From an uncultured Erythrobacter sp. (GTDB lineage: Bacteria; Pseudomonadota; Alphaproteobacteria; Sphingomonadales; Sphingomonadaceae): 64,000 nt of DNA. A program made the translations under genes and the position numbers. The stretch's first letter is position 1. The number at the start of each line of letters is the position of its first letter. Positions 5,324-57,958 of this stretch are shown here, in pieces. The DNA is taken from positions 992,001 through 1,056,000 of the forward strand of contig CANLVN010000001.1 of the NCBI GenBank assembly GCA_947494705.1, given 5' to 3'. The notes below the pieces were generated by a model. It did no database searches and was not told where the DNA came from. It saw nothing but the letters and a program-made list of their open reading frames with translations.

Positions 5324-5530
5324 ATGGCAACGTCCCCCGACAAGAAGCCCGGAACCATAGACCCGGCCGCGCCGCCTGAAAGCCCGCCCGGCAAGCTTCC
5401 CGAGGAAACACCTCATCAGGCACCCGACGAGATCGTGCCGCCCGAACCCGACACCGATCGCCCGGACGGCGCACCGGCGGAAACGCCCGGCATCAGCGAT
5501 CCGACGATCGACCCCAGTGTAAAGACCTGA
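5324..5530 (+). CDS. Small proline-rich acidic protein (68 aa)
   Basis: Starts MATSPDKKPGTIDPAA after an AGGAA ribosome site. The product is about one quarter proline, acidic, with no cysteine and no membrane segment, so it is probably disordered. The next frame starts 18 bases downstream and has a similar composition (both contain PP-x-DPD/IDP motifs), so the two are likely co-transcribed and perhaps related. I do not recognise a family. Confidence 0.5.
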   Translation: MATSPDKKPGTIDPAAPPESPPGKLPEETPHQAPDEIVPPEPDTDRPDGAPAETPGISDPTIDPSVKT

Positions 5531-5548
5531 ACCGGACGGAAAACGCCC

Positions 5549-5809: not shown

Positions 5810-5874
5810 GGAACGGGCGAGCCGTGCAACGGTTCGATATTGTCAGCTTCGCGTGCGCGCACTAAGGGCGCGCC

Positions 5875-6183: not shown

Positions 6184-6234
6184 AGTCCTGCTGTCCTTGC
6201 CAAGTGGCGGGATAGCGACCACTTGCGCAATGGC

Positions 6235-41425: not shown

Positions 41426-44400
41426 CCGCCCCCGCAGCGAGCGGGTGACACAGGATCGCCTCGTGCGCTTCATCACTCAACCCGAAGCGACCGGTGGTCT
41501 CGGCTATGATTATCTCGGCGACTGGTCCAAACGCGACAACAACCGCTGTGTAGATCCCGAGCTTTTGCGCGCAAACCTGACTAAGCGCGGTTACACGTCT
41601 GACGAAATCAGTGCGGCGATGACCAAGCTGATGCAGGCGATTGAGGTCACAGGAACCACGCTCTACCAGGCGAACATGCGCACCTACACGCTGCTGCGTT
41701 ACGGCGTGGACGTGCGAACCTCAGCCAGCGAGCCCTTCAAGACAATCCATCTGGTCGACTGGGACAACCCGGACAACAACGATTTCGCTTTGGCAGAAGA
41801 GGTGACCATCAGGGGCGGCCACGAACGGCGCCCCGACCTCGTGGTTTATTTGAACGGGCTTGCAGTCGCTGTGATCGAACTCAAGCGCTCCTCGGTCGAG
41901 ATCGGCGACGGGATCCGGCAACTGATCTCCAACCAGGAAGAGATTTTCAACGCACCGTTCTTCGCCACCGCGCAATTGCTGCTAGCCGGCAACGACACCC
42001 AAGGGCTGCGCTATGGGACAATGCGAACGCCCGAAACCTACTACGTGGAATGGCGCGACGAGGATCCACCGACCGACGATCTCGCTTCCGGTGCTTTGCT
42101 TGACCGACCGGTTGGTCAGATGCTGCGCAAGGACCGCCTTCTCGATCTCATCCGGCACTTCGTCATTTTCGACGCCGGCCAGAAGAAGGTGCCACGGCAG
42201 CATCAGTTCATCGGTGTGAAGCTGGCCCAGGACCGGCTGTCAAAGCGCGAAGGCGGCGTGATCTGGCACTCGCAGGGTTCTGGTAAGAGTATCCTGATGG
42301 TGCTGCTAGCGAAGTGGATACTGGAACACGATCCAGAGGCGCGTGTCCTCATCGTTACTGACCGGGACGAACTCGATAAGCAAATCGAGGGCGTGATGCG
42401 AAACGCCGGTGTCACCGCAGCCGACGCACCCTCTCCGCGGGTGACGAAGCGGGACCAGTTCGTGAGCTGGCTTGGCTCCCCCTCGCCCCGCCTGATCTGC
42501 GCGCTGATCCATAAATTCGACACGACCGACTTATCGGGCCCGCCGCCAAAGGTGCACGGCCGGTTTTATGTCTTCGTGGACGAGTGCCACCGCACGCAGG
42601 GCGGTGACATGAACAAGCAAATGAAGCGCTGGCTGGAGGGCGCGATCTTCGTCGGTTTTACCGGCACGCCGCTCCTTAAGAAGGACCGGCAGACCACGCG
42701 GGACGTCTTCGGCACATACATCCACACCTACAAATTTCAGGAAGCAGTGCGGGACAAGGTGGTCCTCGACCTGAAATACGAAGCCCGCGACGTGCCGCAG
42801 AAAATGACGGACCCAGCTGCCATCGACGCTTGGTTCGAGAAGCAGACCAGGGGCCTGAACAAATATCAGAAGGCAGTTCTTCGCAAACGCTGGGCGAGGA
42901 TGGAAGAGCTGCTCAGCTCCACAGGTCGCAAACAGCGTATCGTTGCTGAGATCGTCAAGGACTTCGATCTCAAGCCTCGCCTGTCAGATGATCGCGGCAC
43001 AGCGATCCTAGTCGCCGATTCCATTCGCGATGCATGCGAATACTTCCGGCTTTTTCAAGGCACCCGTCTGGCTGGCCAAGTGGGGATTGTCACCTCATTC
43101 GAGCCGAACCACAACGCGGTGTCTCGCGAACCTGCCAAGAGCGATGAACGCTATAAGTTCGACACCTACACGAATTTCGTGCTCGCGAGCGGTCAGAGCA
43201 CCGGAGCCTATGAGACAGAGGTCAAGCGTCGGTTCATCGATGAACCTGCGAACATGAAGCTGATCATCGTCGTCTCAAAGCTGCTCACCGGCTTCGATGC
43301 CCCAAGCTGCACCTACATCTATCTCGACGACACGCTGCGCGATCATAACCTTTTTCAGGCGATCTGCCGCACCAACCGGCTCGATGGCGACGACAAGGAA
43401 TATGGCTACATTGTCGACTTCAAGGAGCTGTTCGGGAAGGTCCAAGAGGCAATCGCAATCTACAGCTCTGACAAACTCGATGTCGACCAAGGGGACGGCG
43501 GCGACAATAACGTCACGATCAAGGAATGGCTGGAAGAAGGTAAGGCGCGACTGGATGCTATCCGCGAGGAACTGCACTATTTATGCGAACCCGTTCCGCC
43601 GCCTCGGGAGGTCGAGCAGTTCCTGCGATATTTCTGCGGCGATGCCGGTAGCCCCGAGGCGCTGCTGGAGACGGAACCGTTGCGGATCGCCTTCTACAAG
43701 TCGGTTGCCTCGTTCGTGCGAGCGTATGGTGCGCTGGCCGCCAACCTAGAAGAGGCGGGATACTCAGCAACAGAGCAGGCCGATATCGTTGGAGAAGTCG
43801 AGGCTTATGCGGACTTGCGCGCAGCGATAAAGCGACACTCGGGAGAGGAGCTCGACATCAAGCCCTACGAGGCGGACATGCGGCACCTCCTCAACACTTA
43901 CATTGAGGCAGAAGCGGCCACCACACTTGGAACGCTGTCCAAGGTATCGCTCACTGAAGCGATCATCGAAACCGGAATCCACGATGCCATTGCCAAACAG
44001 CTCAACGAGAAAGGCAAGCTTTCGAAGAACGCGATCGCCGAAGGGATCATCAACAATATCCGCAAGACGATCATCCGCGAGCAGTTAACCGATCCGCGCT
44101 TCTATGAAGAGATGTCCAAACTCCTCGAGGACCTTATCAAGCATGCTCGCGAGAGTGCGGAAGCTTACGAAGAGTTTCTTCGCGAGGCCGAGGAACTGGT
44201 TCGGAAGTTAGCGGAAAAGGAAGCCGATCCCGGGCTACCCGCGGTGCTTCAAGGCAACCGTGAGGCTGCTGTGATCTACAACAACTTGGCAGCGCTCCCG
44301 GCGACGACATTCGCTTGTCCGCCAGGTGATGATGAAAGAGCAAATCTAGCTCTCGAAGTGGACATCGCTGTCCGCGAGCGCGCGCCTGCGGGATGGAAAG

Positions 44401-44513
44401 GCGATCCCATCCGGGAAAAGGAAGTAAAAAACACACTGTTCCCGATCTTCAACCGCGACCGTGATGCCACCATGGCGATTTTCAAGATCATCAAGAGCCA
44501 AACGGGGTATTGA
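41418..44513 (+). CDS. hsdR: Type I restriction endonuclease/translocase subunit HsdR
   Basis: A 1031-residue motor-nuclease. The N-terminal nuclease shows Asp140 (RRPDLVVYLNG) and Glu154-x-Lys156 (AVIELKRSS). The SF2 translocase has Walker A with Lys290 (SQGSGKS), the DECH box in VFVDECHRTQGG, motif III GFTGTPLL and a late QAICRTNRLD. A helical C-terminal region for binding the methylase follows. The start at 41418 overlaps the hsdS stop by eight bases. All catalytic motifs look intact, so the system is probably functional. Confidence 0.95.
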   Translation: MLDRPRSERVTQDRLVRFITQPEATGGLGYDYLGDWSKRDNNRCVDPELLRANLTKRGYTSDEISAAMTKLMQAIEVTGTTLYQANMRTYTLLRYGVDVRTSASEPFKTIHLVDWDNPDNNDFALAEEVTIRGGHERRPDLVVYLNGLAVAVIELKRSSVEIGDGIRQLISNQEEIFNAPFFATAQLLLAGNDTQGLRYGTMRTPETYYVEWRDEDPPTDDLASGALLDRPVGQMLRKDRLLDLIRHFVIFDAGQKKVPRQHQFIGVKLAQDRLSKREGGVIWHSQGSGKSILMVLLAKWILEHDPEARVLIVTDRDELDKQIEGVMRNAGVTAADAPSPRVTKRDQFVSWLGSPSPRLICALIHKFDTTDLSGPPPKVHGRFYVFVDECHRTQGGDMNKQMKRWLEGAIFVGFTGTPLLKKDRQTTRDVFGTYIHTYKFQEAVRDKVVLDLKYEARDVPQKMTDPAAIDAWFEKQTRGLNKYQKAVLRKRWARMEELLSSTGRKQRIVAEIVKDFDLKPRLSDDRGTAILVADSIRDACEYFRLFQGTRLAGQVGIVTSFEPNHNAVSREPAKSDERYKFDTYTNFVLASGQSTGAYETEVKRRFIDEPANMKLIIVVSKLLTGFDAPSCTYIYLDDTLRDHNLFQAICRTNRLDGDDKEYGYIVDFKELFGKVQEAIAIYSSDKLDVDQGDGGDNNVTIKEWLEEGKARLDAIREELHYLCEPVPPPREVEQFLRYFCGDAGSPEALLETEPLRIAFYKSVASFVRAYGALAANLEEAGYSATEQADIVGEVEAYADLRAAIKRHSGEELDIKPYEADMRHLLNTYIEAEAATTLGTLSKVSLTEAIIETGIHDAIAKQLNEKGKLSKNAIAEGIINNIRKTIIREQLTDPRFYEEMSKLLEDLIKHARESAEAYEEFLREAEELVRKLAEKEADPGLPAVLQGNREAAVIYNNLAALPATTFACPPGDDERANLALEVDIAVRERAPAGWKGDPIREKEVKNTLFPIFNRDRDATMAIFKIIKSQTGY

Positions 44514-45217
44514 TGGTCGAGACAATCGAAATCGCCGACATGTTGATCGACGTGACCCGAAAGGCAGTGAAGAATGTCCACCTTTCGGTTCATCCGCCAG
44601 AAGGTCGCGTCACACTCGTGGCACCGACTAACACACGGATCGAAGTGGCTCGCGCCTACGCCATTACACGTCTAGGCTGGATACGAAAGCAGCAGGAGCG
44701 ATTCCGGGACCAAGTTCGCGAGTCACCGCGGCGGTTCGTGACACGTGAAAGCCATTATCTTTGGGGAAGGCGTCACCTCCTGAAGGTCGAAGAGCACGAA
44801 GGTCGACAAGGTGTGACTGTTGACCATCGAACCATCCACCTTCGTGTCAGGCCTGGGTCAGACACATCAAAGCGGGCCGAAATCATTCATCGATGGCACC
44901 TCCGTCTTTTGCACCAAGCCCTGCCGCCCATAATTGAAAAATGGGAGCCTCGTTTGGGCGTAACCGTCGAACGCTACTTCCTCCAACGAATGAAAACGAA
45001 GTGGGGCAGTTGTAACGCTGCGCAGCGCACGATTAGATTGAACACCGAACTCGTGAAGAAGCCCCGCGACCTACTTGAATACGTCGTGGTGCACGAAATG
45101 ATCCATATTCTCGAACCAACCCATAGCCCGAAATTCTTCGAGATTCTCACAAAGAACTATCCGAACTGGGCCGGGGCTCGCTTAGAACTGAACGAGCTTC
45201 CAGTCCCTGCGATCTAG
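44513..45217 (+). CDS. YgjP/WLM-type zinc metallopeptidase
   Basis: A 234-residue protein whose zinc site is visible: HEMIH at 194-198 and a third His at 204 (THSPKF), the H-E-x-x-H-x5-H pattern of the YgjP (DUF45) family. The family motif KWGSCNAAQRTIRLN precedes it at about residues 163-177. The start shares one base with the hsdR stop (TGATG), so it is translated with the restriction operon. YgjP genes are frequent companions of type I restriction systems, but their role there is unknown. It may process or remove one of the subunits; this is speculation. Confidence 0.85.
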   Translation: MVETIEIADMLIDVTRKAVKNVHLSVHPPEGRVTLVAPTNTRIEVARAYAITRLGWIRKQQERFRDQVRESPRRFVTRESHYLWGRRHLLKVEEHEGRQGVTVDHRTIHLRVRPGSDTSKRAEIIHRWHLRLLHQALPPIIEKWEPRLGVTVERYFLQRMKTKWGSCNAAQRTIRLNTELVKKPRDLLEYVVVHEMIHILEPTHSPKFFEILTKNYPNWAGARLELNELPVPAI

Positions 45218-45524
45218 GCAAAGAGCTTTCTTGGGCGAGCTTAATTTCGACCTGCTCGAATGTCGCGATCCGACATCTTTATGAGAGCAGGATCAAGCGG
45301 TGACCGTAGCAGGTGCTGTTAATTTACCCGGTCTGAAACGGACCAAGGATGGTAAGACGCATACTAGACATTACTAGGACCAAGCCCAACAGCCGGGCGG
45401 ATTGCAGCTGATGGCCCCTTAGCAAAGACCCACGAGAGAGTTGCGTAGCTCGGACACAAAGAAGCAATCGAACCCGCGAGTCTTGATGCCCTCGAGGACC
45501 ATTGGGCTTGGTTCTAGATCAGAT
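45218..45524. other. Intergenic region between convergent defence operons
   Basis: 307 bases between the YgjP-type gene and the WYL gene. No gene, RNA or clear terminator hairpin seen. Confidence 0.5.
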
Positions 45525-46550
45525 TCACTCACAATCAGTCCCTCCGTTTTGTTTATCATTGGGCTGCATCGGAGCGGTCACGGCCAACTCCGCGACCCTC
45601 AACCGCTCGCGCATCACCTTGCGCAATTCCTCCGGTGCTTCGATGCGAATCTCGCCGCCCCAGGTGAACAAATGCTCTGCGATCTCGCGCAATCCTCCCG
45701 AGTGGAAGCGAACCACCACTTCCTCACCGTCCGCCTCGATGCTCTGGTGGGGATGAAATCGCCAGCGCCGGGCGCGCTCAGCGCTTTCGGGGCCGACCCT
45801 GAGAACGATATCGTGACCTTCCTCGCGCCAAATCCCGAAGCTGCGGCCCATCCATTCGTCGAGGTTCCAGTCATCGCCGGGAGCGCCGGACTCCTCGCTC
45901 GCGCGGACCGCGCTCATCCGGTCGAGCCGGTAGGGGACTGGGTCGAGATCGCGGCCGGGAAGTTTACCGATGAGGTAGGTCACCGGTCCGTGGATGAGGC
46001 CGAAGGGAATGACGCGGCGCCATTTTGCCTCGTTCGCGCGTTCGGCTCGGTAATCGAACTCGACGCAGCAGCCCGCCATGATTGCGCCTTGGACGCAAGC
46101 GACCATTTCGGGTCCGTGCTCGATCAGTGGGCCGGCCGGGAGATAGTGGCGCTGGAGGCGAACAAGTGGATCGAGGTCAGGTGCCATGCGGCTCTTCACC
46201 TCTCGCCTGAGCCCCGCGTGCACCTTGGCAAGCAGACTTTCGAGTAGCGGCGCCTGCGCCGAGCCCGTCCTCCGCTCCGTCGCGGCGAGCGATTGCAGCG
46301 CGGCAATCTCGGCGACGTTGGGCTGCGTGAAGGCAGAGGGCAGCGGGCCCGGTATGCGAAAGCGCTTCCGGCGATCCTCGACCGTCTCATCGAGATCGAA
46401 ATGAACGAGAATGAGGTCGCGCAGCCGCTCCGCGGTGCGGCGGTCCACGCCGATTTCTTGGGCCATCTCTTCGAGCGTCAGGCCCTCGGTGCTTTCGCTG
46501 AGTGCCTTGACGAGAGTTAGCAGCCGGTCAAGCTTCGCCATGCGGGCCAT
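45525..46550 (-). CDS. WYL-domain transcriptional regulator
   Basis: A 341-residue protein. The N-terminal winged helix is LDRLLTLVKALSESTEGLTLEEMAQEIGVDRRTAERL. The WYL region follows at about 150-240, with CVEFDYR, RRVIPFGLIHGPVTYLIGKLPG and VPYRLDRM matching the pattern of a small-ligand or nucleic-acid-sensing beta domain. The C-terminal WCX-like part contains VVVRFHSGGLREIAEHLFTWGGEIRI. WYL proteins of this layout (BrxR, CapW) repress defence operons. The gene is last in the McrBC-containing operon, seven bases after mcrC, so it is probably self-controlling for the cluster. Confidence 0.88.
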   Translation of the reverse strand: MARMAKLDRLLTLVKALSESTEGLTLEEMAQEIGVDRRTAERLRDLILVHFDLDETVEDRRKRFRIPGPLPSAFTQPNVAEIAALQSLAATERRTGSAQAPLLESLLAKVHAGLRREVKSRMAPDLDPLVRLQRHYLPAGPLIEHGPEMVACVQGAIMAGCCVEFDYRAERANEAKWRRVIPFGLIHGPVTYLIGKLPGRDLDPVPYRLDRMSAVRASEESGAPGDDWNLDEWMGRSFGIWREEGHDIVLRVGPESAERARRWRFHPHQSIEADGEEVVVRFHSGGLREIAEHLFTWGGEIRIEAPEELRKVMRERLRVAELAVTAPMQPNDKQNGGTDCE

Positions 46551-46557
46551 TGGTCGG

Positions 46558-47913
46558 CTACTCCACTAACATGGCCATAGGGGGCGAAGCCTCGCCCATT
46601 GTCTCGCCCGAAGGCCGGTGGGAAAGCATTTTAGCACAGAGCCGCGCAAGCGATGCCGTTAGGTCCGCTTCGTTCTGGGCCACGTCCACCGATGCGATCC
46701 GCAGGCACTCGCTGCCGCCCGCGATACCGAACCGGGCACGCTCGCTCGATTCTTCACCCGGGCGGCTGGGATAAAGTAGCATCAGCTCCTTCGTGCAATA
46801 GAGCCGCGCATAGGCCATCAGCTGGTAGACGTCGGACTGACTAACCCCGTGCTTGCGCTCGAGCGGGTCGGAGTCGAGCTTCTTCCACTTAGTGTCGATG
46901 ATCGCGCAGATCTGGCCGCCACGGCGCAGAATAATGTCGGGTTTGGTGCTAAACACATTACCGCTTTCGAGATGCTCGCCGGTGAAGGTGCCAAGACAGG
47001 CGCGATGCCCGCCCTGTTCCACCACTTCGATCTCACTCCCCGCCAGTGCGCGGCGCAACATCACCGCAACGTATTTCTCGAAAAGGTCGTTCATCGGGAA
47101 GAGTAGCGTGAGGCCCTCAGGTGCCTTCGTATCATGATGGGTCGCCTGCCAGTCGCGCTGTAGCAGCAGCATCGCCAGACGAAACAGCGCCGCCCAGCGC
47201 CGGTTTGTGCGGTCAATCCGGACCTGTTTCCACGGCAGGCGGTTGATCGGCACGAGGGGAATGTCGACAAGCGTGCAGCGCAGCTCGTCCAGCTTGCGCC
47301 TAGTAGTGTGCGAACGTGCATGTCCGGCGAGGAACACGACCGCCGCCGCCATCACGCGCATCAGCGGCGTGTCCGACTCTAGCTGGTCGAAGCGGCAGGC
47401 AAGCCGGTCGGGCCGCACAGCGTTACGTGTAAACTGGCGGGTCACGTCGAGCCGTCCGCGCAGCGCAGGCAGATCGTCCTCGCGCGCGACATAGGCGCGC
47501 GGCAGGCCTCGCCGAACCTCGGCGAGCAAGCGCATTGCAAAGGCGTCGATCAGGATTTCGAGCAGGCTCGTCTTCTGCCGCGCGATCGCCGCTTCGCCCC
47601 CGATGCCGAGATCGAGACCGAGCGCAACATCGAGCATCCGCACGAGGCGGGATCGAACGGTTTTCTGGTTCTCCGCCCCCTCGTTCGGATCGACCTTGGG
47701 CAGGATCTCTAGGCTGCATCCCTTCGCCGAGACGATGCCGACCATCTGCCGCGCGATCAGCCGGTCGCGGCCCAGCACCATGATGTTCGTCGCATCCTCC
47801 CTAGCCAGCGGATGCGCGCAGGCGGCGGCATGAAGCGCATCGGCCTTCTCGCGGGTAAGACCGTTCTCGCCGAAGCGCGCATGACCCCATTCGTGCAGCG
47901 TCAGGTGGGTCAT
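46558..47913 (-). CDS. mcrC: McrC-like nuclease subunit
   Basis: A 451-residue partner of McrB. The N-terminal half is the beta-rich McrC domain (SLEILPKVDP, DVTRQFTRNAVRPDRLACRFDQLESDTPLMRV). The C-terminal PD-(D/E)XK nuclease has Asp326 in STKPDIILRRGG and Asp340-x-Lys342 in AIIDTKWKKL, then QSDVYQLMAYA, the usual QxxxY helix of this fold. In E. coli McrC stimulates the McrB GTPase and cuts DNA. The start at 47913 forms an ATGA overlap with the preceding nuclease gene; the frame upstream of it is not family-like. Confidence 0.93.
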   Translation of the reverse strand: MTHLTLHEWGHARFGENGLTREKADALHAAACAHPLAREDATNIMVLGRDRLIARQMVGIVSAKGCSLEILPKVDPNEGAENQKTVRSRLVRMLDVALGLDLGIGGEAAIARQKTSLLEILIDAFAMRLLAEVRRGLPRAYVAREDDLPALRGRLDVTRQFTRNAVRPDRLACRFDQLESDTPLMRVMAAAVVFLAGHARSHTTRRKLDELRCTLVDIPLVPINRLPWKQVRIDRTNRRWAALFRLAMLLLQRDWQATHHDTKAPEGLTLLFPMNDLFEKYVAVMLRRALAGSEIEVVEQGGHRACLGTFTGEHLESGNVFSTKPDIILRRGGQICAIIDTKWKKLDSDPLERKHGVSQSDVYQLMAYARLYCTKELMLLYPSRPGEESSERARFGIAGGSECLRIASVDVAQNEADLTASLARLCAKMLSHRPSGETMGEASPPMAMLVE

Positions 47914-48653
47914 GGGGTGAATGCCTCCCGCACCGCGCGGGCGTGGCCTGCGGCCGCGCCGCTGAAGGTCGAAAGCCATCCGCGCCACGAGCAGGCTGCG
48001 AAACGCACGCGGTCGCCCGCCACTCTTACTTGGAGGTCTTCGATCTCGCGGCGATGCTGAAGGAAAGCACTGTCGGATATCTCCATCCCGCCGTCCGGTT
48101 CGGCGTAAAGATACAGCAGGGCAGGCTCGAGCCCCTCGCGGCTCGCTTGCGTCGCAATGCCGAGTGCGTGCTTGACGAGCTGCGCCGCGTCGAGGTGGCT
48201 ATATCTTCGAGGCTCGGCGCTAAGCAGGTCGCGCATAGCCTGCCAGCGGGTCATCCCCTCGCCCCAGACGTCGCGGTTATAGGTCTCGGACAGCTCTGCG
48301 GGTTTCGCGCCGCGGAAGGGCTCATAGCGCTTGGACTCAACGCCGATCAGGTGCGTCTCGGTCCAGACGGCGGCATCGAGCCAAGGGTGTCGCCCGCCGC
48401 TCCACGGAAATCGCATCTCGCATTCGATACCGACCTTGACAGGGCGGCCGGACAAATCGGCGAACGGAGGGAAGGCAGGCTGTTCACCGGGCCGCTCTAG
48501 GAACCATCCGAATCCGTTGGCCGCTAGCGCTGCGCTGCTCTGCGGATTGGCGAATTTACCACTGGCAATCTCCTTACCTGCCGCACGCTTGAATATGGCA
48601 CGAACGCAGTCTTCAGGAACGCCCGGCAAAAACAGAGGGTTTGCCTCGCTCAA
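47910..48653 (-). CDS. PD-(D/E)XK nuclease-like protein inserted between mcrB and mcrC
   Basis: A 247-residue protein starting at TTG 48653, which overlaps the mcrB stop (TTGA). The candidate active site is Asp93 in PWLDAAVWTET and Glu106-x-Lys108 in LIGVESKRYEPF, with Glu77/Glu79 just upstream. The spacing fits the PD-(D/E)XK fold, and the Y-containing helix near 145 could support it. The remaining part is helical. Its place between the two Mcr subunits, with overlaps on both ends, implies it works with them. It resembles PGN_0703-type restriction nucleases in the active-site segment. Family assignment is by motif only. Confidence 0.72.
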   Translation of the reverse strand: MSEANPLFLPGVPEDCVRAIFKRAAGKEIASGKFANPQSSAALAANGFGWFLERPGEQPAFPPFADLSGRPVKVGIECEMRFPWSGGRHPWLDAAVWTETHLIGVESKRYEPFRGAKPAELSETYNRDVWGEGMTRWQAMRDLLSAEPRRYSHLDAAQLVKHALGIATQASREGLEPALLYLYAEPDGGMEISDSAFLQHRREIEDLQVRVAGDRVRFAACSWRGWLSTFSGAAAGHARAVREAFTP

Positions 48654-51619
48654 TCGACGACCTCCGCCGCGACCGCACCAGACGGCTTACCCTTTACAAG
48701 ACGGGAGTAGGCGCCTTCATCGAAGCTGTCGCGAACACGCCAGCTCTTCAGCGGTTCGCCGCCATCGCCCATTGGATCCTCGATGGTTTCGCATTCGAGA
48801 AAATTGCAGCCCTTGTCCTTCTCACCAAGAACCGCAGCGAGGCGGTTCCAGTCTTCGAAGAAATATTCTTGTAGAAGCGGGATGACCTTGTCGCGCATGA
48901 CCGCGTCAACTTGCGGCTTCGTTTTGCAGCCGATGAAGAAGGCATGGCCAATCCGGTGGTCGCGATCGACGAGGTATTCTATACGCCGATTCACGGTCTC
49001 GAGCACCTGTGCGAGCGGAAGGCCGGTTGCCCTCTCTGCGTCCAGGAAGGCCTCGACCGAAGTATCAGGAGCCATCTCCTCGAAGCGGAACCGGCGGCGC
49101 AGCGCAGTATCGAGCAGCGCGATTGAGCGGTCGGCAGTATTCATTGTGCCGATGATGTGCAGGTTCGCGGGCACTCCGAATTCGCGCTTCGAATACGGCA
49201 GCCGGACCTTGAGCGCGTTCGGCATGCCTAGCCGCTTGTCCGGTTCGATCAACGTAATGAGCTCGCCAAAGACCTTGGAGATGTTGGCGCGGTTGATCTC
49301 GTCGATGATAAGAACGTGCGGGATGCAATTCTGAGTTGCGGGGCGATCCTCATCCTGATTTACGATCTGTGACAGGCCAGTCCAGTCTACAGCGGCGGGA
49401 TCGAGTCGATACAGCGAGTGCCTTCTGAAACCTTTTGGGTAGAAGACCGATCGCTCCTCGCCTTCCTCGTTCCGCCAGAGCCAGCGGACCCTCCGTCGGT
49501 GGGGGTGGCGCTCTTGATTGGCGTGATATTCGTAGGGCCCAATGACTTCTCCAACGGCTCTGAAGCGATCCCTGCCGTCTGAAACGACAACATAGTCGCC
49601 TTCCTGCATCCAAGACCTCAAGGCAAAGAGTTGTTCAACGTTAGAGTCCTTGCCTGATGCATCCGGATCCTTCTCCCGCCGCCACCTCTCCAATATTTCC
49701 TGAAGATCGTCGTATTCCGGTGCACTCCAGTCGATATCACCACCCCATCCGAGCGTGATCACCGCTTCATCGAGCGCCTCAGTTATTAGAGCTTCCTCAT
49801 GATTCCGATCCCCCAAGGCGATCTTAAAAACCGACCGGTGTGTGTCGAGGGAAGACGCCGAAGTTGCACGCTGAACTGCCGCTCTCTCCGCCATATCTCG
49901 AAAGATGCCGGGGTGCACATCAAGGGTAAGGGCTCGATCATTAGGTCCGTCCACTTCGCTATCCTGCGACGATGATGGCGGCCGTAGTCCCTCTACGAAC
50001 TCCTCGTAACTGAAACTCTGGTGAAACGTAACGAAGTCAATCCGGTGCGCGTCGATAAGTTCGCGGTAGCGCTTCATCAGCGCTGCGCGCCCTTCGGCAT
50101 CTTCGCGATATTCGACAGAATCATCACACAGCCGCACCGCTTCGCGGGCAGTGCGATACGTCTTTCCAGTGCCAGGTGGACCGTAAAGGATAAGGTTGGT
50201 TGGTTCCATCAACGTTTGGCTCTCTGGCGATGTTGATTCATCGATTTCATACTCATCTGGCCATCGCCCCTCGCGATTGGTTTCAGTGGGCTGCCAGTCG
50301 GACAAATTTGACTCCGCTTGTTCGATCATCGAACCAAAATCTGCAGCACTTTGATCGTTGAACTCGTATGAACCCGTGAGGCCGAGTTTGTCGTTCTGGT
50401 GGCTGAAAACAACGAACGCTCGATCAGTTCGCAACTGAACTGAGCCCAGCGTCCCAGCAGCATCGCGATTGGCATCATTTTTCCGACCGAACCGAATTTC
50501 TGGAATTTTCGTGTGATACCAATCGAGACCTGCCTCATGCACCGTTCGAGCTATTGAACAAAAAGCTCGCTTCTGCTCGGCGCTCCAAGCGGCACGGGCC
50601 ACCCCAAATCGCTCATCGCCATCGAAGCGCATCAGAAGCTCATCGTCATTCATTTCATCGTCTCGCAGCACTTTCTGACAAGTTTCCCAAATGAAGCCTT
50701 GCACATCCCAAAGATCACGGGGTGACCAACCCCACTCGTGGTCCATGATCCGCATCATCTCTTTGGCCATTCCCGAGACATTGGTCAGTTCGTCGGGAGA
50801 GAGTGGTGCATTGGCAAAAGCCGGCTTTCCCAAAAGCATGCGCGAGGCATTGTCAGTTGGCGTGGATCTGATCGGCAGGACTGATTGCGGGTCAACGAGC
50901 GCGCGCAGCATCGTCGGGAACATACGGCTCTCTGCAAAGGGATTACCGGCCACGTTGTCGCGCATTTCCGGCCAAAGCACCTCAAGCCATTCAGCAATGG
51001 CTTCTGAAGCATCGTCTGCCTGTGCAAGGCGCCCGGTCGCTGCTTCGACCAAGCTCGACTCCGCCTCGCGTGCTTTGTCGATGACCTTCTGCGCACGCCA
51101 GTCGATCAGGTTGCTATAAAGCCCCGCGCGTCCAGCGAGTAGTTCGATGAGCGCCGCTCCGATTTCGGCATCATCTGAAGCAGACATGTCGTGGATCAAT
51201 CGTTGAGCTTCTTCGACGAGCGCGCGCTTGTATTCGCCTTCGCTTTCCGCGAAGCTCGGGCAATCGGAGAAGGTCTCAAAGTCATCGTGCCGCTGGAGAA
51301 ACAGGCTCTTCATCCGATCAAGAGCCACCCGGTCCAAAACTAGACTAGGCGTAGATGCAGAAGTCTCCGCTGCAAACTTGCGGTAGTATCGAAGCGACTG
51401 ACGAAGGTGGTTGCGCTCCCCTTCGTTGCCGAGATCCGCCGGTAGCGCAGCAGAGTCCGCAAGAAGCGTCGCGATACGTTCGATCTCGCCTTTCTCGATC
51501 AACAGATCAAGATCACCAAAGTGGCGATTGAGCTTCCGAATTTTGCTCAACTGCGTCCCAATGGTGCCCTCGGCGAGCCCCCTTCCACGCATCCATTTAC
51601 GGAGCTCCTCTTCTCTCAC
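48650..51619 (-). CDS. mcrB: McrB-like AAA+ motor with PUA/EVE-like insertion
   Basis: A 989-residue protein. The start is GTG 51619, overlapping the helicase stop (GTGA) with AGGAGGGAGG ahead; the open frame further upstream is antisense-like sequence inside that gene. The AAA+ core has Walker A GPPGTGKT at 480-487, the McrB signature FVTFHQSFSYEEFVEGLRP, Walker B LIIDEINRANISKVFGEL with Asp773-Glu774, and MNTADRSIALLDTALRRRF. Between Walker A and B lie about 285 residues, far more than usual. Part of this (WMQEGDYVVVSDGRDRFRAVGEVIGPY) looks like a PUA/EVE domain that reads modified bases. The N-terminal 470 residues are helical, then a separate beta domain (RTDRAFVVFSHQNDKLGL). Confidence 0.9.
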   Translation of the reverse strand: MREEELRKWMRGRGLAEGTIGTQLSKIRKLNRHFGDLDLLIEKGEIERIATLLADSAALPADLGNEGERNHLRQSLRYYRKFAAETSASTPSLVLDRVALDRMKSLFLQRHDDFETFSDCPSFAESEGEYKRALVEEAQRLIHDMSASDDAEIGAALIELLAGRAGLYSNLIDWRAQKVIDKAREAESSLVEAATGRLAQADDASEAIAEWLEVLWPEMRDNVAGNPFAESRMFPTMLRALVDPQSVLPIRSTPTDNASRMLLGKPAFANAPLSPDELTNVSGMAKEMMRIMDHEWGWSPRDLWDVQGFIWETCQKVLRDDEMNDDELLMRFDGDERFGVARAAWSAEQKRAFCSIARTVHEAGLDWYHTKIPEIRFGRKNDANRDAAGTLGSVQLRTDRAFVVFSHQNDKLGLTGSYEFNDQSAADFGSMIEQAESNLSDWQPTETNREGRWPDEYEIDESTSPESQTLMEPTNLILYGPPGTGKTYRTAREAVRLCDDSVEYREDAEGRAALMKRYRELIDAHRIDFVTFHQSFSYEEFVEGLRPPSSSQDSEVDGPNDRALTLDVHPGIFRDMAERAAVQRATSASSLDTHRSVFKIALGDRNHEEALITEALDEAVITLGWGGDIDWSAPEYDDLQEILERWRREKDPDASGKDSNVEQLFALRSWMQEGDYVVVSDGRDRFRAVGEVIGPYEYHANQERHPHRRRVRWLWRNEEGEERSVFYPKGFRRHSLYRLDPAAVDWTGLSQIVNQDEDRPATQNCIPHVLIIDEINRANISKVFGELITLIEPDKRLGMPNALKVRLPYSKREFGVPANLHIIGTMNTADRSIALLDTALRRRFRFEEMAPDTSVEAFLDAERATGLPLAQVLETVNRRIEYLVDRDHRIGHAFFIGCKTKPQVDAVMRDKVIPLLQEYFFEDWNRLAAVLGEKDKGCNFLECETIEDPMGDGGEPLKSWRVRDSFDEGAYSRLVKGKPSGAVAAEVVD

Positions 51620-54600
51620 TTGCCTCCCTCCTCGATCACCCATGCAAGGGTATTCACCAATTGTAGATGATCGACGCTTTTTGCGTCCAATTCCAGTAAC
51701 TTCGGATTGGCCATCACAAGCGCAAGTGTGCGCGCTCGGCTGATCGCGACATTTATGCGGTTCTTCGAATAAAAGAACTCGACATGTCGCGGCAGGTCGT
51801 CCGGGGTCGACGTCGCGAGTGATACGATCACCACCTCGGCTTCCTGACCTTGGAACTTGTCCACAGTGCCCACGCGCGCTTCGGCGGGCAACGCAGCCGT
51901 GAGGGCATTCACCTGCATATTGTATGGCGCCACGATCAGGATGTTCTTCCACCCGATTTTGCCCTTCTTGCCCTCCCGATTGGTGAATTCCGTGCCGATC
52001 AACCCTTCGGCCAACTCCTTCACCCTTGCCACTTCGGCATCGCTTCGCTGTCCGCAGCCTGCGTGATCCATCGCCACGAAGCGGATCCCACTCTCGGCGA
52101 GCACAGGATCATGGCCGGGCTGCAGATGGAGCCGCTGGCGCGCGCAATCGGGATGAGCTTTCAGGCGCCCGTCATAGACAGCGTCCGAAATGAAACCGCA
52201 GATCGAGGGATGCATACGCCAACTGGTATCGAGCAGGATGCCCCGGTCGGCTGCGACAGTAGCCTCGCCCTGCAGCAGGTAATCAAGCGCCGAAAGACCA
52301 CTTTCGCCCGGATGGGCGCCCTGGATGGGCTGTGACAACTGCATCTGGTCGCCTACGAGCACGATATTGCGTGCAGCCGATCCCATCGCCAGCAAATGAC
52401 CGAGCGACACCTGTCCAGCCTCATCTACAAACAGATAGTCGAGCGTTCGGTCGAAATCGCTATCGGCAAACAGCCAGGCCGTGCCACCGATCAGATCAGG
52501 CATGTAATCATGCACATCAGCGGCTTTCTCAACGTCGGTTATGATACGGCCATTGAGCCGTTGCTCGTCATTTCCACGCGTGCATTTCTTCACACCGACG
52601 AAGCTGAGGCCAGTCTCATCCGCGACATCCTCCACTTTCGCTAGCAGGTTGTTGATCGCCTTGTGGCTGTTGCTGGAAACGCCGACCTTCTTGCCCGCAG
52701 CGAGCAACGAGCAGATCACGTGTGCACTTGTGAAGGTCTTGCCCGTGCCCGGCGGTCCTTGGACAAATAAGGTCGTGCCGTCCATCGCCAGACAGCGCAT
52801 TGTCGCCGCTTCGACCAGGCTTTCGCCTTCTCGCACCAGCGGCCCACCATTCCAGCCGAGTAGTTGCGGCGCCCTGCGTTCGATGAGATCGAGCAGCGCG
52901 CTGTAGGGTCGCTCGTTTGCCTCTTCCACTGGGGTAGGAACGCCGTTTAGCCACTCTTCCTCCGCCATACCCGCCCAGGCCAGCGCCACCCGGCGAACGG
53001 CGGAAACGAGAATCTGGTTCGGCACAGTCGGCTCGGGGATCAGTGAGCCGTCCAGTGGCCAGATCCCCTTGGCGGCATTGCCTCGCTTGATTTCAACTGT
53101 CCCCGCTTCACAATCGAGCGCTACGATGGTGCCAACTTTTGAAAGGCTCGGCGCGTGCAGGACGACCGATCCTTCCCGAAGTTTCGTCTCCTGCGGCGCA
53201 AACCGATAGCTGGCGATGGTGCTGCGCTTATCTGGTCGTTGCCAAATTTCCTCTTCATCGGGGTCTGGCACGATGCCTCCGATGCACTCATGATCTTCTG
53301 CGAGCTCATCCGGATCACGCTCACAGCGGTCGAACATGGCCCAAAAAGCAGGCTTATCGGCTCTGCGATGAAACTGTGTGAGGTGTCCGACTAGCGCCCT
53401 GCCCTCTTCGCTTTCCGGCAATGGCCCGGCTTCGATGGCCGTCAGTATCCTCTGGGAGCGCACCTCGGCTTCAGCGCGTGCTTCCGCTTTTTCATCGGGA
53501 ACCGCCGCAGCAGGACCAACTGGCCGCCACGGCAAATCCTCCATACGCAATTCTACCAGCCAGTCGCGCAGTGCCTCGGTATTTTCGCAATCCACCTTGT
53601 TGTATTCGAGAATGCCGTCGAGGATCGCCTGTTCGTTGGTTTTTTGCCAGCTTTTGTATTCAACAACAGATTGGTCAGCCTTGGTCACATCGCCCTGGCG
53701 CGCGTCGGCAAAGAATATCTCCATTGTTTTGAGCGACAGGTTGTCTTCGCTTGTTCTGATGGCCTGCCTCAAGACACCATAGAGATCCACGAACCGCCTC
53801 TTGCGCAGCATGTCGTCGAGCAATTCTTCGCGGCTCGCATGAAGCGTGGATAGGCGGCGGAGCGCCGTAATTTCGTAAGGGGCATAATGGTAAACATGCG
53901 CGCCGGGATTGGCCTCGAGATGCGCGGCAATCCAGTCTATCGTGGTTTCGAAAGCAATCCGTTCATCGGCGTGGTTGTGCCCCCACCGAAAACGGAACTG
54001 CGGACCGGATCCATCGCGGTAGTGCACGCCCCAAAGGTAATCCAGTCCGCCCTCTTCCAACGGATCACCCTCAAGGTCGAAAAACAGGTCAGCGGGATCA
54101 GGTTGAGGGAGGGCGGCAAAGCCCCTGCCGTCCTCAATCGGCAAAGGCTCAGCCACTGGCTCTCCACCCTGCCAGCGGGTTTGCTGAAGCCGGGCCTGCG
54201 CACGCAATTTGTCGAGCGTGGCAAGCGCGAGGCGGGGAATGCGCTGATCATCCGGAAGAGAGGCGAGTTGCGCAACCGTGGATACGCCAGCCGCTCGAAG
54301 TTTTTCGATCTGTGGTTTGCCTATCCCACACACGCGCGAAAGATGATCTTGTGCTTCCCAGACCTCAGCACAATGATCGCGCCACGGACACAAGCCGCAG
54401 GCTGAACATGGCTCCGGCTCGCTCTCCTTTACCCCACTCTCCACGAAAGCGAGGAAGCGGGCGATAGCGGCGCCGAGCACCTTATCAAAATCGACGAGCC
54501 GAAAGCTCTCGCGTCGCCCGTCGCCCAGTTGGACATGCGCACGGCGCGGCGCCTTGCCCTGGATATCAGCTATCATCCGTGCATAGATGCCGAGCTGCAC

Positions 54601-55038
54601 AACGTGACTTGCCTTGGCCGAGCGCGCCAGCTTGGTATCCACCGGTTCGTAAGACCAGTCGCCGAGGTCGGACGGCTCCTCTACCCGGATCAGGAAATCG
54701 GCGAAGCCACTCCATGGAGGCTGCAGAAAGGCAGCTTGGAATATTGCCTTCGCGCCTTGTTTCATGGCCTCCCTTGTCAGCAATGCGCGACTTTCCAGCG
54801 AGCCTTTCTCCGGTATCTCGACTAGGCCGCCTTCACCCGCAAGCTGCTCACGATAAGCATCCTCGTGTTCAAGGCCGGCTTGTTGCACAAGCTTGCCCAT
54901 GGCGTCGTCTTCGGCCTGTTGGGGACCGGCGTCAGGCTTTTGCAACCGCGCCAGGTCGAGTGCGGTGGCATGCGCACAGCCTAGATAGCGGACAAGATCC
55001 GACGGTGAATAAAGGATGGCGTTATTGAACTGACGCAT
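51616..55038 (-). CDS. TM0106-type Cas4-like nuclease / RNase H-fold / SF1 helicase
   Basis: A 1140-residue, three-part enzyme. Residues 1-230 form a RecB/Cas4-like nuclease: Asp114, Asp134-x-Lys136, and four cysteines for an iron-sulfur cluster (Cys21, then Cys211, Cys214, Cys217 and Cys223 in the CSACGLCPWRDHC region). Residues about 330-520 form an RNase H-like 3'-5' exonuclease domain (DLFFDLEGDPL, AHVYHYAPYE, EYNKVDCENT). The C-terminal half is an SF1 helicase of the Dna2/NAM7 type, with Walker A GPPGTGKT at 761-768, YLFVDEAGQVS, LVGDQMQLSQP, GTVDKFQGQEAEVVI and NVAISRAR. It is first of the overlapping five-gene set; its stop overlaps mcrB. It would process DNA ends ahead of or behind the McrB motor. 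Confidence 0.9.
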   Translation of the reverse strand: MRQFNNAILYSPSDLVRYLGCAHATALDLARLQKPDAGPQQAEDDAMGKLVQQAGLEHEDAYREQLAGEGGLVEIPEKGSLESRALLTREAMKQGAKAIFQAAFLQPPWSGFADFLIRVEEPSDLGDWSYEPVDTKLARSAKASHVVQLGIYARMIADIQGKAPRRAHVQLGDGRRESFRLVDFDKVLGAAIARFLAFVESGVKESEPEPCSACGLCPWRDHCAEVWEAQDHLSRVCGIGKPQIEKLRAAGVSTVAQLASLPDDQRIPRLALATLDKLRAQARLQQTRWQGGEPVAEPLPIEDGRGFAALPQPDPADLFFDLEGDPLEEGGLDYLWGVHYRDGSGPQFRFRWGHNHADERIAFETTIDWIAAHLEANPGAHVYHYAPYEITALRRLSTLHASREELLDDMLRKRRFVDLYGVLRQAIRTSEDNLSLKTMEIFFADARQGDVTKADQSVVEYKSWQKTNEQAILDGILEYNKVDCENTEALRDWLVELRMEDLPWRPVGPAAAVPDEKAEARAEAEVRSQRILTAIEAGPLPESEEGRALVGHLTQFHRRADKPAFWAMFDRCERDPDELAEDHECIGGIVPDPDEEEIWQRPDKRSTIASYRFAPQETKLREGSVVLHAPSLSKVGTIVALDCEAGTVEIKRGNAAKGIWPLDGSLIPEPTVPNQILVSAVRRVALAWAGMAEEEWLNGVPTPVEEANERPYSALLDLIERRAPQLLGWNGGPLVREGESLVEAATMRCLAMDGTTLFVQGPPGTGKTFTSAHVICSLLAAGKKVGVSSNSHKAINNLLAKVEDVADETGLSFVGVKKCTRGNDEQRLNGRIITDVEKAADVHDYMPDLIGGTAWLFADSDFDRTLDYLFVDEAGQVSLGHLLAMGSAARNIVLVGDQMQLSQPIQGAHPGESGLSALDYLLQGEATVAADRGILLDTSWRMHPSICGFISDAVYDGRLKAHPDCARQRLHLQPGHDPVLAESGIRFVAMDHAGCGQRSDAEVARVKELAEGLIGTEFTNREGKKGKIGWKNILIVAPYNMQVNALTAALPAEARVGTVDKFQGQEAEVVIVSLATSTPDDLPRHVEFFYSKNRINVAISRARTLALVMANPKLLELDAKSVDHLQLVNTLAWVIEEGGK

Positions 55039-55113
55039 TCGCGATTACTCCTTGCGAACGCGCTAGCAGTCTGCTGCGACAAAAGCGGTCGATTGTCAAA
55101 AAGAATGCAGGCA

Positions 55114-57150
55114 TTAAAACCCCATAGAAGATTTTTCAAACCCACGGCCTTCTCGTTCTTCGATCAGCCATTTTGCGAGAACCTTGGGATCCTTCTCTGC
55201 CAGTAATTTCGCCCGCTTGCTGACGAGAAAATAATCTCCGGGCGTCGTGCCAGCAACCGGCAGCCTTTCAGGTGCATGGAAGCCAAACCATCGCTTGAAC
55301 TGCGCGCGTGCTCGATGCTCATCGAGCGGTTTGAATTTCGCACAAACAGTAAATCTGCGCTGCGTCGCCGGATCGAAATTGTCCGCTAGGTTGGTCGTCG
55401 CCACGAATGGCGCCTTCAATGCTTCCATCTGGCGCAGCATCTCGTTGACCATGCTGCGTTCCCAACCTCGCTGGGCACTGCGGCGGTCAGTGAGGAAATC
55501 ATCCGCTTCGTCGATCAGCAGCAGTCCCTTGCAGCGCCATGCCTCGTGGAAGGCGGCGGCGATGTTCGCTTCGGTTTCACCGACATACATGCCAAGCAGG
55601 TCAGAGCCGCGCCGTTCGACGAGTTCGATCTGCAGCCGTTCGGCCAGATGGCGCGCGTAGGCACTCTTGCCAGTTCCGCTCGGCCCCGAGAGCAGTAGGC
55701 TCCAGTCACGATCCTCGGACGCTTCGAGCCGGTCGGCCAGCGCGTCAAGATCACGGTCCGCCACGGCGAGAGCGGGATCATAGGCCGCTGGCAACGCCAC
55801 GGGGCTTGGAACTCGCCCCGTGATCGCGGTCACCAGACCTTCTCCAATTGCCATAGCCTGCTCGATATTCCCCCCTGCCTCCTTCGCGCCTTTCACCGCC
55901 GACGCAAGAACGGCGGGAGCAGCGGGCAGCGAGGCGAGACGATGCCTGTCATTTTCGGACAGCTTCAACTTTGCTTTCTTCGCGTGCAGATCGACAATCC
56001 GTTGCCGCACCGCGGGCGATGGTTTCGGAAATTCGATAGCCAGCGACATGCGCCGGATCAGCGATTCCTCGAAGCGCCACAGATCGTTCACGATCCAGAT
56101 CGTCGGCCGCTCACCGCTTTCGATCAGGCGATTCAGGAACAGTTTCGACCGGCCGCCGCGGTCTTCCAGCGCGCCGAGTTGCAGCACGTCGTCGGCCTCG
56201 TCCATCACCACGATGCGCCCCGGTTCGCCGCTGGTCAGCGCCCGCAGCAATGTCAGGTGCGCCAGCCTCTCGCGGCGGTTGGGTTCCCGGCCGCTCTCAT
56301 CCTCCATCCCGGCAAAGACGGCACGCTTGCCCGAGCGGGAAGCAAGCAGCCTGGCAAATTCCGTCTTTCCGGTTCCCGGCGGCCCGTAGAGCAGAATTGC
56401 GCATCCCCTCGCCGCCCCGACGAGTGTCTCTGCAATTTCTCGCTGCGGCCCAATGTGGTCGAAGTCACACCAGGCGAGCGTCGATGGCTTGGCAACCGGC
56501 ATCAGCTGTCTTGCCAAGCGGGAAGGCGGCGAACCCGATTTTGCGATACGTTGCAGGAAATTGTTGGCCGAAACCTCTCCGTCGCGGTCATTGTCGACAA
56601 GGCCGGTGCTCCACAGCCGCGCTCCAACCGCCAAACGGTCTTCCACCTTGAAAAGGGGGAGATCATTCAGAAACGCGATCTTGCGTGAAGATGGGTTGTG
56701 GCCCCCACCAGGCAGCGCCCGGATCAGCTTGTCCCATTCATCATGCGTGGAACACCGCGCAAGCGTCAAGATAATTGCCCGCTCAATGTCGTCGAGCTTC
56801 AGCATCTTCGCCAGCCAGTCGATCCGGCGATCAAGCGACGTGCGCTTCATCGTTCCACCGCTAGAATTGCCCCTAACCAGCCGACGCAGCAAAGGGGGAT
56901 ACTGCTGACTGGTGAGCAGCTCCCAGTCCTCCTCGTTATCGAAAGCCTTGTTCGCAGGCTCGGCGTGCGTCCATGCTTCCAGCAGCTCCGAACCGCATTT
57001 GCAAAGCTGCTGATCGGACATCCGGCTAACCACGTCACACCATGTCTGCGCGAAGAGCCTAGCTTCTTCGTTGGAAGAAAAGGACGTTTCGGATCGGCGG
57101 TTGCTATGGCGGTAGTGACGCCTCAAGCGGTGGAGTTCTGATTCTGTCAT
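55114..57150 (-). CDS. Protein with two AAA+ ATPase domains
   Basis: A 678-residue protein from ATG 57150 (MTESELHRLRRHYR); an in-frame start at 57225 would overlap the opposite gene's leader. The N-terminal 220 residues are helical. The first AAA domain has Walker A GPPGTGKT at 256-263, Walker B IVVMDEADDVLQ and an Arg pair in ESLIRRMSLAIEF. The second has GPSGTGKS at 489-496, LLLIDEADDFLTDRRSAQRGWE and DPATQRRFTVCAKF. Both look catalytically intact. The build recalls VCP/Cdc48-like remodelling motors, but no protease domain is attached. It is 75 bases upstream of the helicase-mcr set on the same strand, so it may be co-transcribed. Confidence 0.85.
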   Translation of the reverse strand: MTESELHRLRRHYRHSNRRSETSFSSNEEARLFAQTWCDVVSRMSDQQLCKCGSELLEAWTHAEPANKAFDNEEDWELLTSQQYPPLLRRLVRGNSSGGTMKRTSLDRRIDWLAKMLKLDDIERAIILTLARCSTHDEWDKLIRALPGGGHNPSSRKIAFLNDLPLFKVEDRLAVGARLWSTGLVDNDRDGEVSANNFLQRIAKSGSPPSRLARQLMPVAKPSTLAWCDFDHIGPQREIAETLVGAARGCAILLYGPPGTGKTEFARLLASRSGKRAVFAGMEDESGREPNRRERLAHLTLLRALTSGEPGRIVVMDEADDVLQLGALEDRGGRSKLFLNRLIESGERPTIWIVNDLWRFEESLIRRMSLAIEFPKPSPAVRQRIVDLHAKKAKLKLSENDRHRLASLPAAPAVLASAVKGAKEAGGNIEQAMAIGEGLVTAITGRVPSPVALPAAYDPALAVADRDLDALADRLEASEDRDWSLLLSGPSGTGKSAYARHLAERLQIELVERRGSDLLGMYVGETEANIAAAFHEAWRCKGLLLIDEADDFLTDRRSAQRGWERSMVNEMLRQMEALKAPFVATTNLADNFDPATQRRFTVCAKFKPLDEHRARAQFKRWFGFHAPERLPVAGTTPGDYFLVSKRAKLLAEKDPKVLAKWLIEEREGRGFEKSSMGF

Positions 57151-57274
57151 GCGCTTCTGATAAGTGCGAGGTGCGACAGAATTGGTCGTGGCAGGCGATC
57201 CAACTTTGTGAATGCGGTTGTCCAACGAGAATGTTGCGTTTCAAATCGCGATAGAATGGGGAAAAGATGCCAGC

Positions 57275-57958
57275 ATGAAGAATTTTCAAAGGATCATTTA
57301 TGCAATGCCGGACCGAATTCTTGATCGGTCGGGTTCCATTTTCTACTCGGCACCCGCTGCCTTTGAGGGCAAGCGCGAGATTTATATACTTGGACTCAAT
57401 CCGGGGGGCGATCCTGCAGCGCAGCAAGAAAACACAATTCGCAAACATTACGAGGAATGGGCAGAGCGCACTGAGGCTTACTCTTCTTATGTGGATGAAA
57501 TCTGGGAGGGATCAGTCGCTGGCGCGCATGGGATGCAACCGAGGATTCGGCACCTGGCCAAGCATCTTGGCATAGACCTGCGGCTAACCCCTTCGAGCAA
57601 CGTCGTATTCGTGCGCAGCGCGACGGAGGCAAAGCTGGAAGCCGAAAAGAAGGAACTGCTAGATGCCTGCTGGCCGGTGCATCAGGCGGTCATCGACGAG
57701 CTCGGTATCCGTAGCATTATCTGCCTCGGGAAGACTGCTGGATGGTGGGTTCGCGAGCGCCTTGGCGCGCACAAAGAGCTCGACAGCTTTCAGGAAACGA
57801 ACAAGCGTGGGTGGTGGAGCACCGCCCATCTCTCGCCCGAAGGCAAGGTGGTCTGCACGCTGACCCATCCCGGACGCGTCGACTGGAGCAATCCGGATGC
57901 TGACCCCGCGGCTATGGTCGAGCGGGTCTTGAGAAACGATTTGAGGCCTCAAACGTAG
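57275..57958 (+). CDS. Uracil-DNA-glycosylase-like protein
   Basis: A 227-residue protein (start ATG 57275, MKNFQRIIYAMP). The motif YILGLNPGGDPAAQQENTI near residue 41 matches the LGxNPG loop of the uracil-DNA-glycosylase superfamily, and LTHPGRVDW near residue 202 occupies the place of the second catalytic loop. IICLGKTAGWW in the middle fits the core strand of the fold. It may remove uracil or another modified base. It is the only plus-strand gene inside the minus-strand defence cluster and is divergent from the double-AAA gene. Confidence 0.65.
   Translation: MKNFQRIIYAMPDRILDRSGSIFYSAPAAFEGKREIYILGLNPGGDPAAQQENTIRKHYEEWAERTEAYSSYVDEIWEGSVAGAHGMQPRIRHLAKHLGIDLRLTPSSNVVFVRSATEAKLEAEKKELLDACWPVHQAVIDELGIRSIICLGKTAGWWVRERLGAHKELDSFQETNKRGWWSTAHLSPEGKVVCTLTHPGRVDWSNPDADPAAMVERVLRNDLRPQT

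Follow-up and report, generated by a model that had tools for sequence, protein, structure and literature searches.

We analysed a 64,000-nucleotide stretch of DNA from an uncultured Erythrobacter sp. (contig CANLVN010000001.1, positions 992,001 to 1,056,000; the window, or WIN), in which five minus-strand genes code, in the order of transcription, for a Cas4-like nuclease-helicase of the TM0106 family (HEL), McrB, a second nuclease (NUC), McrC and a WYL-domain regulator (WYL). On balance, and judging from gene order, homology and promoter motifs, we think that these genes belong to a modular array for type IV restriction under the control of a DriD-like regulator, and that the array probably cuts modified foreign DNA. 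The regulation, with its DriD-like WYL protein and shared sites, is the new part, novelty being judged on the open-access literature. In what follows, L numbers denote related loci and G numbers genomes of the sample of the host's family.

The WYL regulator and DriD-type sites

The last gene of the operon (45525-46550, minus strand) codes for a regulator of 341 amino acids (aa) with an HTH-WYL-WCX architecture (Pfam WYL, 7e-9; WCX, 3e-12). The protein matched Caulobacter DriD (PDB 8tp8) at 1.7e-60 over residues 3-321, as against 0.014 for PafBC, so that it has both the domain order and the full-length similarity of a DriD-like activator. It is the only DriD-like match at E<=1e-3 in the host genome, and a WYL protein encoded beside another HEL gene, in L080, also matched DriD (1.4e-52). 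DriD, the protein of entry 8TP8, is a transcriptional activator that is itself activated by single-stranded DNA (ssDNA); its consensus site is ATACGAC(X)7GTCGTAT, and its sites are centred on the -35 position at one distance from the -10 element (PMC12340889, including section 11).

A pattern of this kind, YGACMRNTTYTGTCR, was found by eye upstream of HEL, and both of its copies in the window read CGAC-N7-GTCG. The first, CGACCGCTTTTGTCG (55077-55091, minus strand), lies 38 nucleotides (nt) 5' of the HEL ATG, and the TA of a presumed -10 element begins 11 nt past it (55064-55065). The second, CGACCAATTCTGTCG (57174-57188, minus strand), lies 23 nt 5' of the likely ATG (57150) of a gene for a double AAA+ ATPase (55114-57225, minus strand; PF00004, 6e-36), and TATCAG again begins 11 nt past the site. 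The likely ATG was placed from the start of the L012 frame and gives a protein of 678 aa, which is 94% identical in L012; the same site precedes the gene there. We regard this gene, just upstream of the operon in the window and also present in L012, as a putative companion of the operon. Two features are shared with the DriD regulon of Caulobacter crescentus: the WYL homology over the full length, and CGAC-N7-GTCG sites near -35 whose distance to the presumed -10 is fixed, as is the case for both window sites. The difference lies in the genes that follow the sites, which here serve restriction or code for a helicase and are not didA, bapE, recJ or dnaG. A PafBC-type promoter, our first idea, was dropped given the two E-values above and the fit of the site to the DriD consensus. 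A reading made earlier from the sequence alone had proposed WYL control of the operon; the DriD-like regulator and its matching sites support that proposal in a more specific form than was put forward. We found no work on McrBC with DriD in the open-access literature.

The host genome, of 3,391,363 bases, has three matches, two of which are those before HEL and the AAA+ gene. A set of 44 related loci, 899,289 bp in all, gave 28 strict matches, in 21 loci, as against none for the pattern read backwards and a mean of 0.20 over 20 column shuffles; no strict site was found in 49 NUC loci (766,703 bp) that are more distant and in which neither McrBC nor HEL was detected. Ten of the 28 are HEL promoters. 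The 18 others precede AAA+ genes (three), NUC genes (five: L098, L099, L101, L114 and L197), DUF2779 genes (two), McrB genes where HEL is absent (two), an SbcD-like gene, an RmuC-like gene and a 570-aa gene (one each), or lie near WYL genes (two) or ahead of no gene (one). An A stands 12 nt past the site in 27 of the 28 (base frequency 0.20), the next most constant position reaching 17 of 28, and TA begins at +11 in 13. A looser form of the site occurs in 30 of 48 distinct HEL upstream regions, where 0.80 was expected from Markov resamples, and in 16 of 231 upstream regions of other open reading frames (ORFs) in the same loci. Among 39 HEL loci, 21 had the looser site together with a nearby DriD-like WYL gene, 12 had neither, five had the site alone and one had the WYL gene alone (Fisher, 1.7e-5, a value uncorrected for descent among loci that are related and partly near-duplicate). 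Scans for sigma-70 promoters and terminators showed no excess over shuffles.

Some details of these sites deserve mention. The DUF2779 gene carries a DriD-type site in L092 and L095. Before the AAA+ gene (window 57150-57188) and the DUF2779 and NUC genes of L092, L095, L098 and L099, the site lies 22-24 nt from the ATG, and their transcripts might be leaderless. The SbcD-like exonuclease gene (as annotated; L198, 400-1671) and the RmuC-like gene (by eye; L081, 9944-11870, with the site 325 nt upstream) suggest a wider, end-processing regulon.

Several observations weigh against the DriD reading of these sites. The motif was derived from HEL upstream regions, and 10 of the 28 matches are to that extent circular. 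The third match in the host genome is some 125 nt ahead of what looks, by eye, like a gene for a TonB-dependent receptor. The plain core YGAC-N7-GTCR is present in only 18 of 48 HEL upstream regions (19 of 231 for other ORFs of the same loci), and the remaining 12 of the 30 looser matches have TGWC-type half-sites that do not fit the DriD core. Upstream of NUC genes the strict site occurs in only 3 of 63 cases and the core in 6 of 63, and 23 of the 44 related loci lack a strict site. Two annotated WYL genes of L203 were missed by the profile; counting that locus as WYL-positive changes the association to 21 with both, five with the site only, two with WYL only and 11 with neither (p 1.4e-4). 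Finally, 154 of 298 genomes of the host's family have a strict match, and the backwards control scatters too (not totalled); the family-wide count is not distinctive, and therefore only position is left to carry the operator claim. Of these results, the counts of site-bearing modules do not bear on the window's own two sites.

Gene order and modularity of the operon

HEL (51616-55038, minus strand; 1140 aa) joins a Cas4/RecB-like nuclease, an RNase_H_2 domain (1e-24) and a UPF1/DNA2-like superfamily 1 (SF1) helicase (AAA_12, 7e-28), and matched TIGR03491 at 8e-79. It is followed by McrB (48650-51619, minus strand; 989 aa, GTG start; AAA_5, 3e-16), an AAA+ GTPase with an N-terminal module; by NUC (47910-48653, minus strand; 247 aa, TTG start; PF22558 REase-ARP, 3e-8), a REase-ARP-like PD-(D/E)XK nuclease; and by the nuclease subunit McrC (46558-47913, minus strand; 451 aa; PF10117, 1e-69), which also matched the solved McrC 6ut5 (8e-18). 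The HEL/McrB, McrB/NUC and NUC/McrC junctions are the 4-bp overlaps GTGA, TTGA and ATGA, and 7 bp separate McrC from WYL. HEL has the motifs GPPGTGKT, DEAGQ, GDQMQLSQP and NVAISRA, and a Cas4-type D-DTK with a Cys cluster; the McrC motif PD-x13-DTK is intact, as in canonical McrBC. The functional meaning that we attach to the HEL and McrC motifs is presumed. In NUC, E28, D93 and E106-x-K108 were invariant in 33 chosen rows (the window and 32 of the 80 loci described below), and a fold search was weak (best E 7e-3). No internal stops were found in the operon genes of the window. Ratios of non-synonymous to synonymous substitution (dN/dS) were 0.05-0.18 for HEL, NUC, McrC and WYL in comparisons with L012, L093, L094 and L097, with dS saturated in many pairs outside L012 and the McrC of L097 left out. 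The overlaps, the short gap, motif inspection and the uninterrupted frames bear out the earlier view of a single translational unit with intact catalytic motifs.

A profile scan of genome contigs, made with an alignment of NUC, kept 80 of 150 relatives as loci. The full order HEL-McrB-NUC-McrC-WYL was found in five genomes: the window, L093 (a Sphingomonadales metagenome-assembled genome, MAG), L094 (Porphyrobacter sp. AAP60), L097 (a Novosphingobium MAG) and L012 (a member of the host's family). The sequence-only reading had called for the order to be sought elsewhere, and its recurrence means that it is not unique to the host. The 4-bp overlaps are kept in L012, L093 and L097, and are possible in L094 too if a later GTG is taken as the start. 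McrB-NUC-McrC was found in 11 of the 80 NUC loci and McrBC elsewhere in the locus in five; McrBC went undetected in 64, many of them on short contigs. McrB-NUC-McrC also occurs without HEL or WYL. Three loci (L106, L117 and L119) have it with an HsdR-like gene and no HEL, and in L092 and L095 HEL is absent and a DUF2779/Cas4 gene lies further upstream. In L096, a 1947-aa protein matching PDC-S37 and Hhe (632-6475) occupies the place of HEL before McrB.

The operon may also be longer. In L012, L094, L095 and L096 it runs past WYL into the gene for a YprA-family helicase, followed by that for an SNF2 helicase, which stands at the locus end in L094-L096 and is found also in L180, the stretch beside L012, where a methyltransferase gene comes next. 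The YprA copy of L094 has DEAD and MZB domains, with DruE3 as its best PADLOC match; the best PADLOC matches of the L012/L180 SNF2 helicase were DpdE (2e-175), DrmD (6e-76) and BrxHI/II (8e-60), and those of the L180 methyltransferase DrmMI (1e-69) and PglX (4e-18). ARMADA type I has the order YprA-BrxHII-PglX (PMC12458937, section 5), and the L012/L180 extension can be read as that order. L012 is in this respect like the McrBC loci with a DISARM-like cassette, or ARMADA (Bell 2024, 2025), and L094-L096 share the first two of the three genes, whereas the host genome is without that half: it has no such YprA gene, the best match (7e-10) being to another helicase, and so lacks the ARMADA gene set. 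The covered parts of the Bell 2024 and 2025 accounts name neither HEL nor NUC, DUF2779 or a WYL partner; the term WYL appears once in each paper, in that of 2025 within the references and in that of 2024 outside those parts. Homology between the window and L012 stops at 45597, still within the WYL gene, in its 3' end. Window positions 45218-45597 have no homology to L012, which has its YprA gene there, and hold a short frame that overlaps the WYL stop. The five-gene extent proposed earlier holds in the window; some relatives add an ARMADA-type half behind WYL.

HEL itself has a wider range of partners. In the 298 family genomes, McrC was found in 36, NUC in 11 and HEL (E<=1e-30) in 21, ten of which, the host included, have McrC within 10 kb; in G230, the contig ends after HEL and a following McrB gene. 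All six full-length HELs of this sample whose identity is 59-100%, the host's among them, adjoin McrBC, and G247 has a fragment of 89% at a contig edge. Across the class, 9 of 385 genomes have HEL; among the eight other than the host, McrC lies within 10 kb in two and on another contig in a third. Plasmids gave 63 HEL records at E<=1e-60. McrB-McrC follows HEL in three of the 16 plasmid loci viewed, and a DriD-like WYL gene is nearby, by profile, in nine. The other plasmid neighbours are, by annotation, genes of BREX, multiubiquitin/E2/ThiF, DUF4011 and type III restriction-modification (RM) systems; we take the multiubiquitin/E2/ThiF genes to be Bil. We therefore prefer to view HEL, which occurs without McrBC and beside other defence genes, as a portable accessory and not as a subunit of McrBC. 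Mokosh was considered for HEL and set aside: its full architecture is absent, and the best stretches of the MkoA matches fall in the helicase part (851-1116 and 866-1112). Coupling of McrBC to TM0106 was not found in the open-access literature, where TM0106 by itself gave unrelated work only. In the sections at hand of a Cas4 phylogenomic study (PMC5704561), UvrD-Cas4 and YprA-Cas4 are tied to defence, and a HEL-type protein is not among them.

How far do these genes form one system? They could be a defence-island mosaic, in which systems independent of each other are carried along together and translational coupling does no more than secure co-expression. This is the best of the alternatives, though we hold it to be clearly the less probable account. 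Speaking for it are the HEL genes found alone or beside BREX, ubiquitin-like, DUF4011 or type III RM genes, the many NUC loci without detected McrBC (with the short contigs noted above), the presence of HEL beside McrC in 10 of the 36 family genomes with McrC, and a plasmid HEL 84% identical to that of the window (L197) that has no McrBC near it and a NUC gene 6 kb away, which counts against the array that we propose as well. Against it stand the 4-bp overlaps kept in three relatives, the six family HELs that all adjoin McrBC and the site shared by several modules. A single assembly along the lines of the sequence-only reading, in which McrB reads, McrC and NUC cut and HEL processes the ends, as suggested by the overlapping genes, the kept nuclease motifs and the position of NUC between mcrB and mcrC in 11 of the 80 loci, is unlikely, since its parts are individually absent from relatives. 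A fixed five-part machine we reject as unlikely, because the modules occur apart; the five-gene order appears to be one arrangement of a mosaic.

Other genes of the island lie around the operon. Convergent with it (37671-45217) are hsdM-hsdS-hsdR, which make up a complete set for type I RM, and behind them a gene for a YgjP-like metallopeptidase. Upstream, a protein divergent from the AAA+ gene (57212-57958) has no Pfam match at 0.01 and is 99% identical in L012; a homologue is encoded beside NUC in L099 (10750-11673). Further on come a DUF2779 and Cas4-like protein on the same strand as the operon (59257-60738), whose gene adjoins NUC in some relatives, and a protein with a NOV_C (Protein NO VEIN C-terminal) domain (60798-61655).

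The proposed recognition segment of McrB

McrB has the signature GTMNTAD, that is NxxD, of the GTPase of canonical McrBC. The operon shares with that system an McrB AAA+ GTPase of NxxD type, an McrC with a PD-(D/E)XK nuclease and an mcrB upstream of mcrC; it differs in a predicted YTH-like domain inserted between the two Walker motifs, A and B, in NUC between mcrB and mcrC, in HEL in front and in the DriD-like regulator. Like CoCoNuT types II and III, it has a UPF1-like SF1 helicase adjoining McrBC. The GTPase of CoCoNuTs has an NxD signature (PMC11090510, section 6), and in types II and III the McrC nuclease is inactivated. Here the signature is NxxD, the McrC motif is intact and the helicase is fused to Cas4-like and RNase_H_2 domains. 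An exact match to a CoCoNuT-like class had been envisaged; membership was rejected on the signature and the McrC motif.

The N-terminal module of McrB had no Pfam match. The segment between Walker A and Walker B (49295-49978, minus strand) holds the predicted YTH-like domain. The distance between the two motifs is 276-296 residues in most loci where both were found; it is 104 in L092, L110, L112 and L113, 91 in L044 and 96 in L062. A sequence search of the insert against the PDB gave nothing useful; only a fold search matched. The AlphaFold2 model of the insert had a mean predicted local distance difference test (pLDDT) of 76, with barrel blocks mostly above 90, and a predicted template modelling score (pTM) of 0.69. 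Foldseek returned 33 matches at E<=1e-3, all of them YTH, although their TM-scores, normalised to the length of the query, were only 0.33-0.39. The YTH fold is linked to N6-methyladenine, and an archaeal McrB precedent is cited in PMC7641849. The YTH-like fold of the model therefore makes N6-methyladenine a candidate for the base that is read; modified cytosine is not supported over others. Cutting at modified cytosine, the activity that the sequence-only reading gave for ordinary McrBC systems, was not borne out here, the sole recognisable reader being this predicted fold.

The segment appears to change hands between close relatives. In the window and L012, the McrB proteins are 34% identical up to Walker B and 93% identical beyond it; the operon DNA is 93.9% and 88.4% identical on the two flanks of a break that runs from the McrB start to Walker B and contains one 227-bp piece at 75% identity. 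The break between L093 and L094 opens shortly ahead of Walker A and closes at Walker B, and the match between L094 and L095 resumes at the same Walker B seam, with a 584-bp piece at 90% inside the break. A clean exchange is not seen in every pair: besides the two pieces retained inside breaks, L094 and L096 align through the seam (77.8%). We infer that the McrB segment ending at Walker B is a specificity segment exchanged between near-identical operons. The seam suggests where specificity is seated, and such operons are natural chimeras for mapping the base that is read.

Proposed mechanism and its rivals

To our knowledge, how type IV restriction is kept off in healthy cells and switched on in infection is poorly known. 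In the mechanism that we propose, ssDNA from infection, or from McrBC cleavage and resection by HEL, would bind the WYL domain, and the ssDNA-bound protein would recruit RNA polymerase to the weak promoters of the AAA+ gene and of the operon. McrB would find modified invader DNA through its exchangeable recognition segment and cut it with McrC, NUC would add a second cut, and HEL would unwind and degrade the cut ends, giving more ssDNA. WYL is the last gene of the operon that it would activate, and therefore induction would reinforce itself, the ssDNA made by HEL feeding back. The shared site would let modules come and go within one regulon.

We extend this proposal tentatively, with confidence a little short of even. 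The site may define a DriD-type, ssDNA-triggered regulon laid over plug-in anti-phage modules (McrBC, the TM0106 nuclease-helicase, NUC, DUF2779, AAA+ and perhaps the SbcD- and RmuC-like genes) in Sphingomonadales islands. Phage replication or resection intermediates, not modification, would then arm restriction, and the response would be amplified through the ssDNA that HEL makes.

The sign of the regulation might be the opposite: WYL could repress the array, in the manner of BrxR/CapW, until an infection signal relieves it. BrxR and CapW are likewise WYL regulators encoded within defence loci, and immune-system WYL proteins are described or proposed as repressors (PMC9122589, PMC11804915). 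A WYL gene within the operon is a common layout for autorepression, and the site, which lies over the -35 and extends from about -38 to -24, a position at which binding might obstruct polymerase, fits a repressor too, which is a further point against activation. We consider repression improbable: the best solved full-length match of WYL is DriD, an activator; the distance from site to -10 is constant, as in DriD promoters; and the would-be -35 stretch is, by eye, a poor match. That WYL is an activator rather than a repressor we infer from DriD homology and this spacing only.

If the activator reading is true, a homologue of a DNA-damage sensor, encoded in an McrBC operon and having a defined site, would couple restriction directly to the sensing of ssDNA. 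Members of the array could then be sought by their shared site, with no need to guess from what the genes are called.

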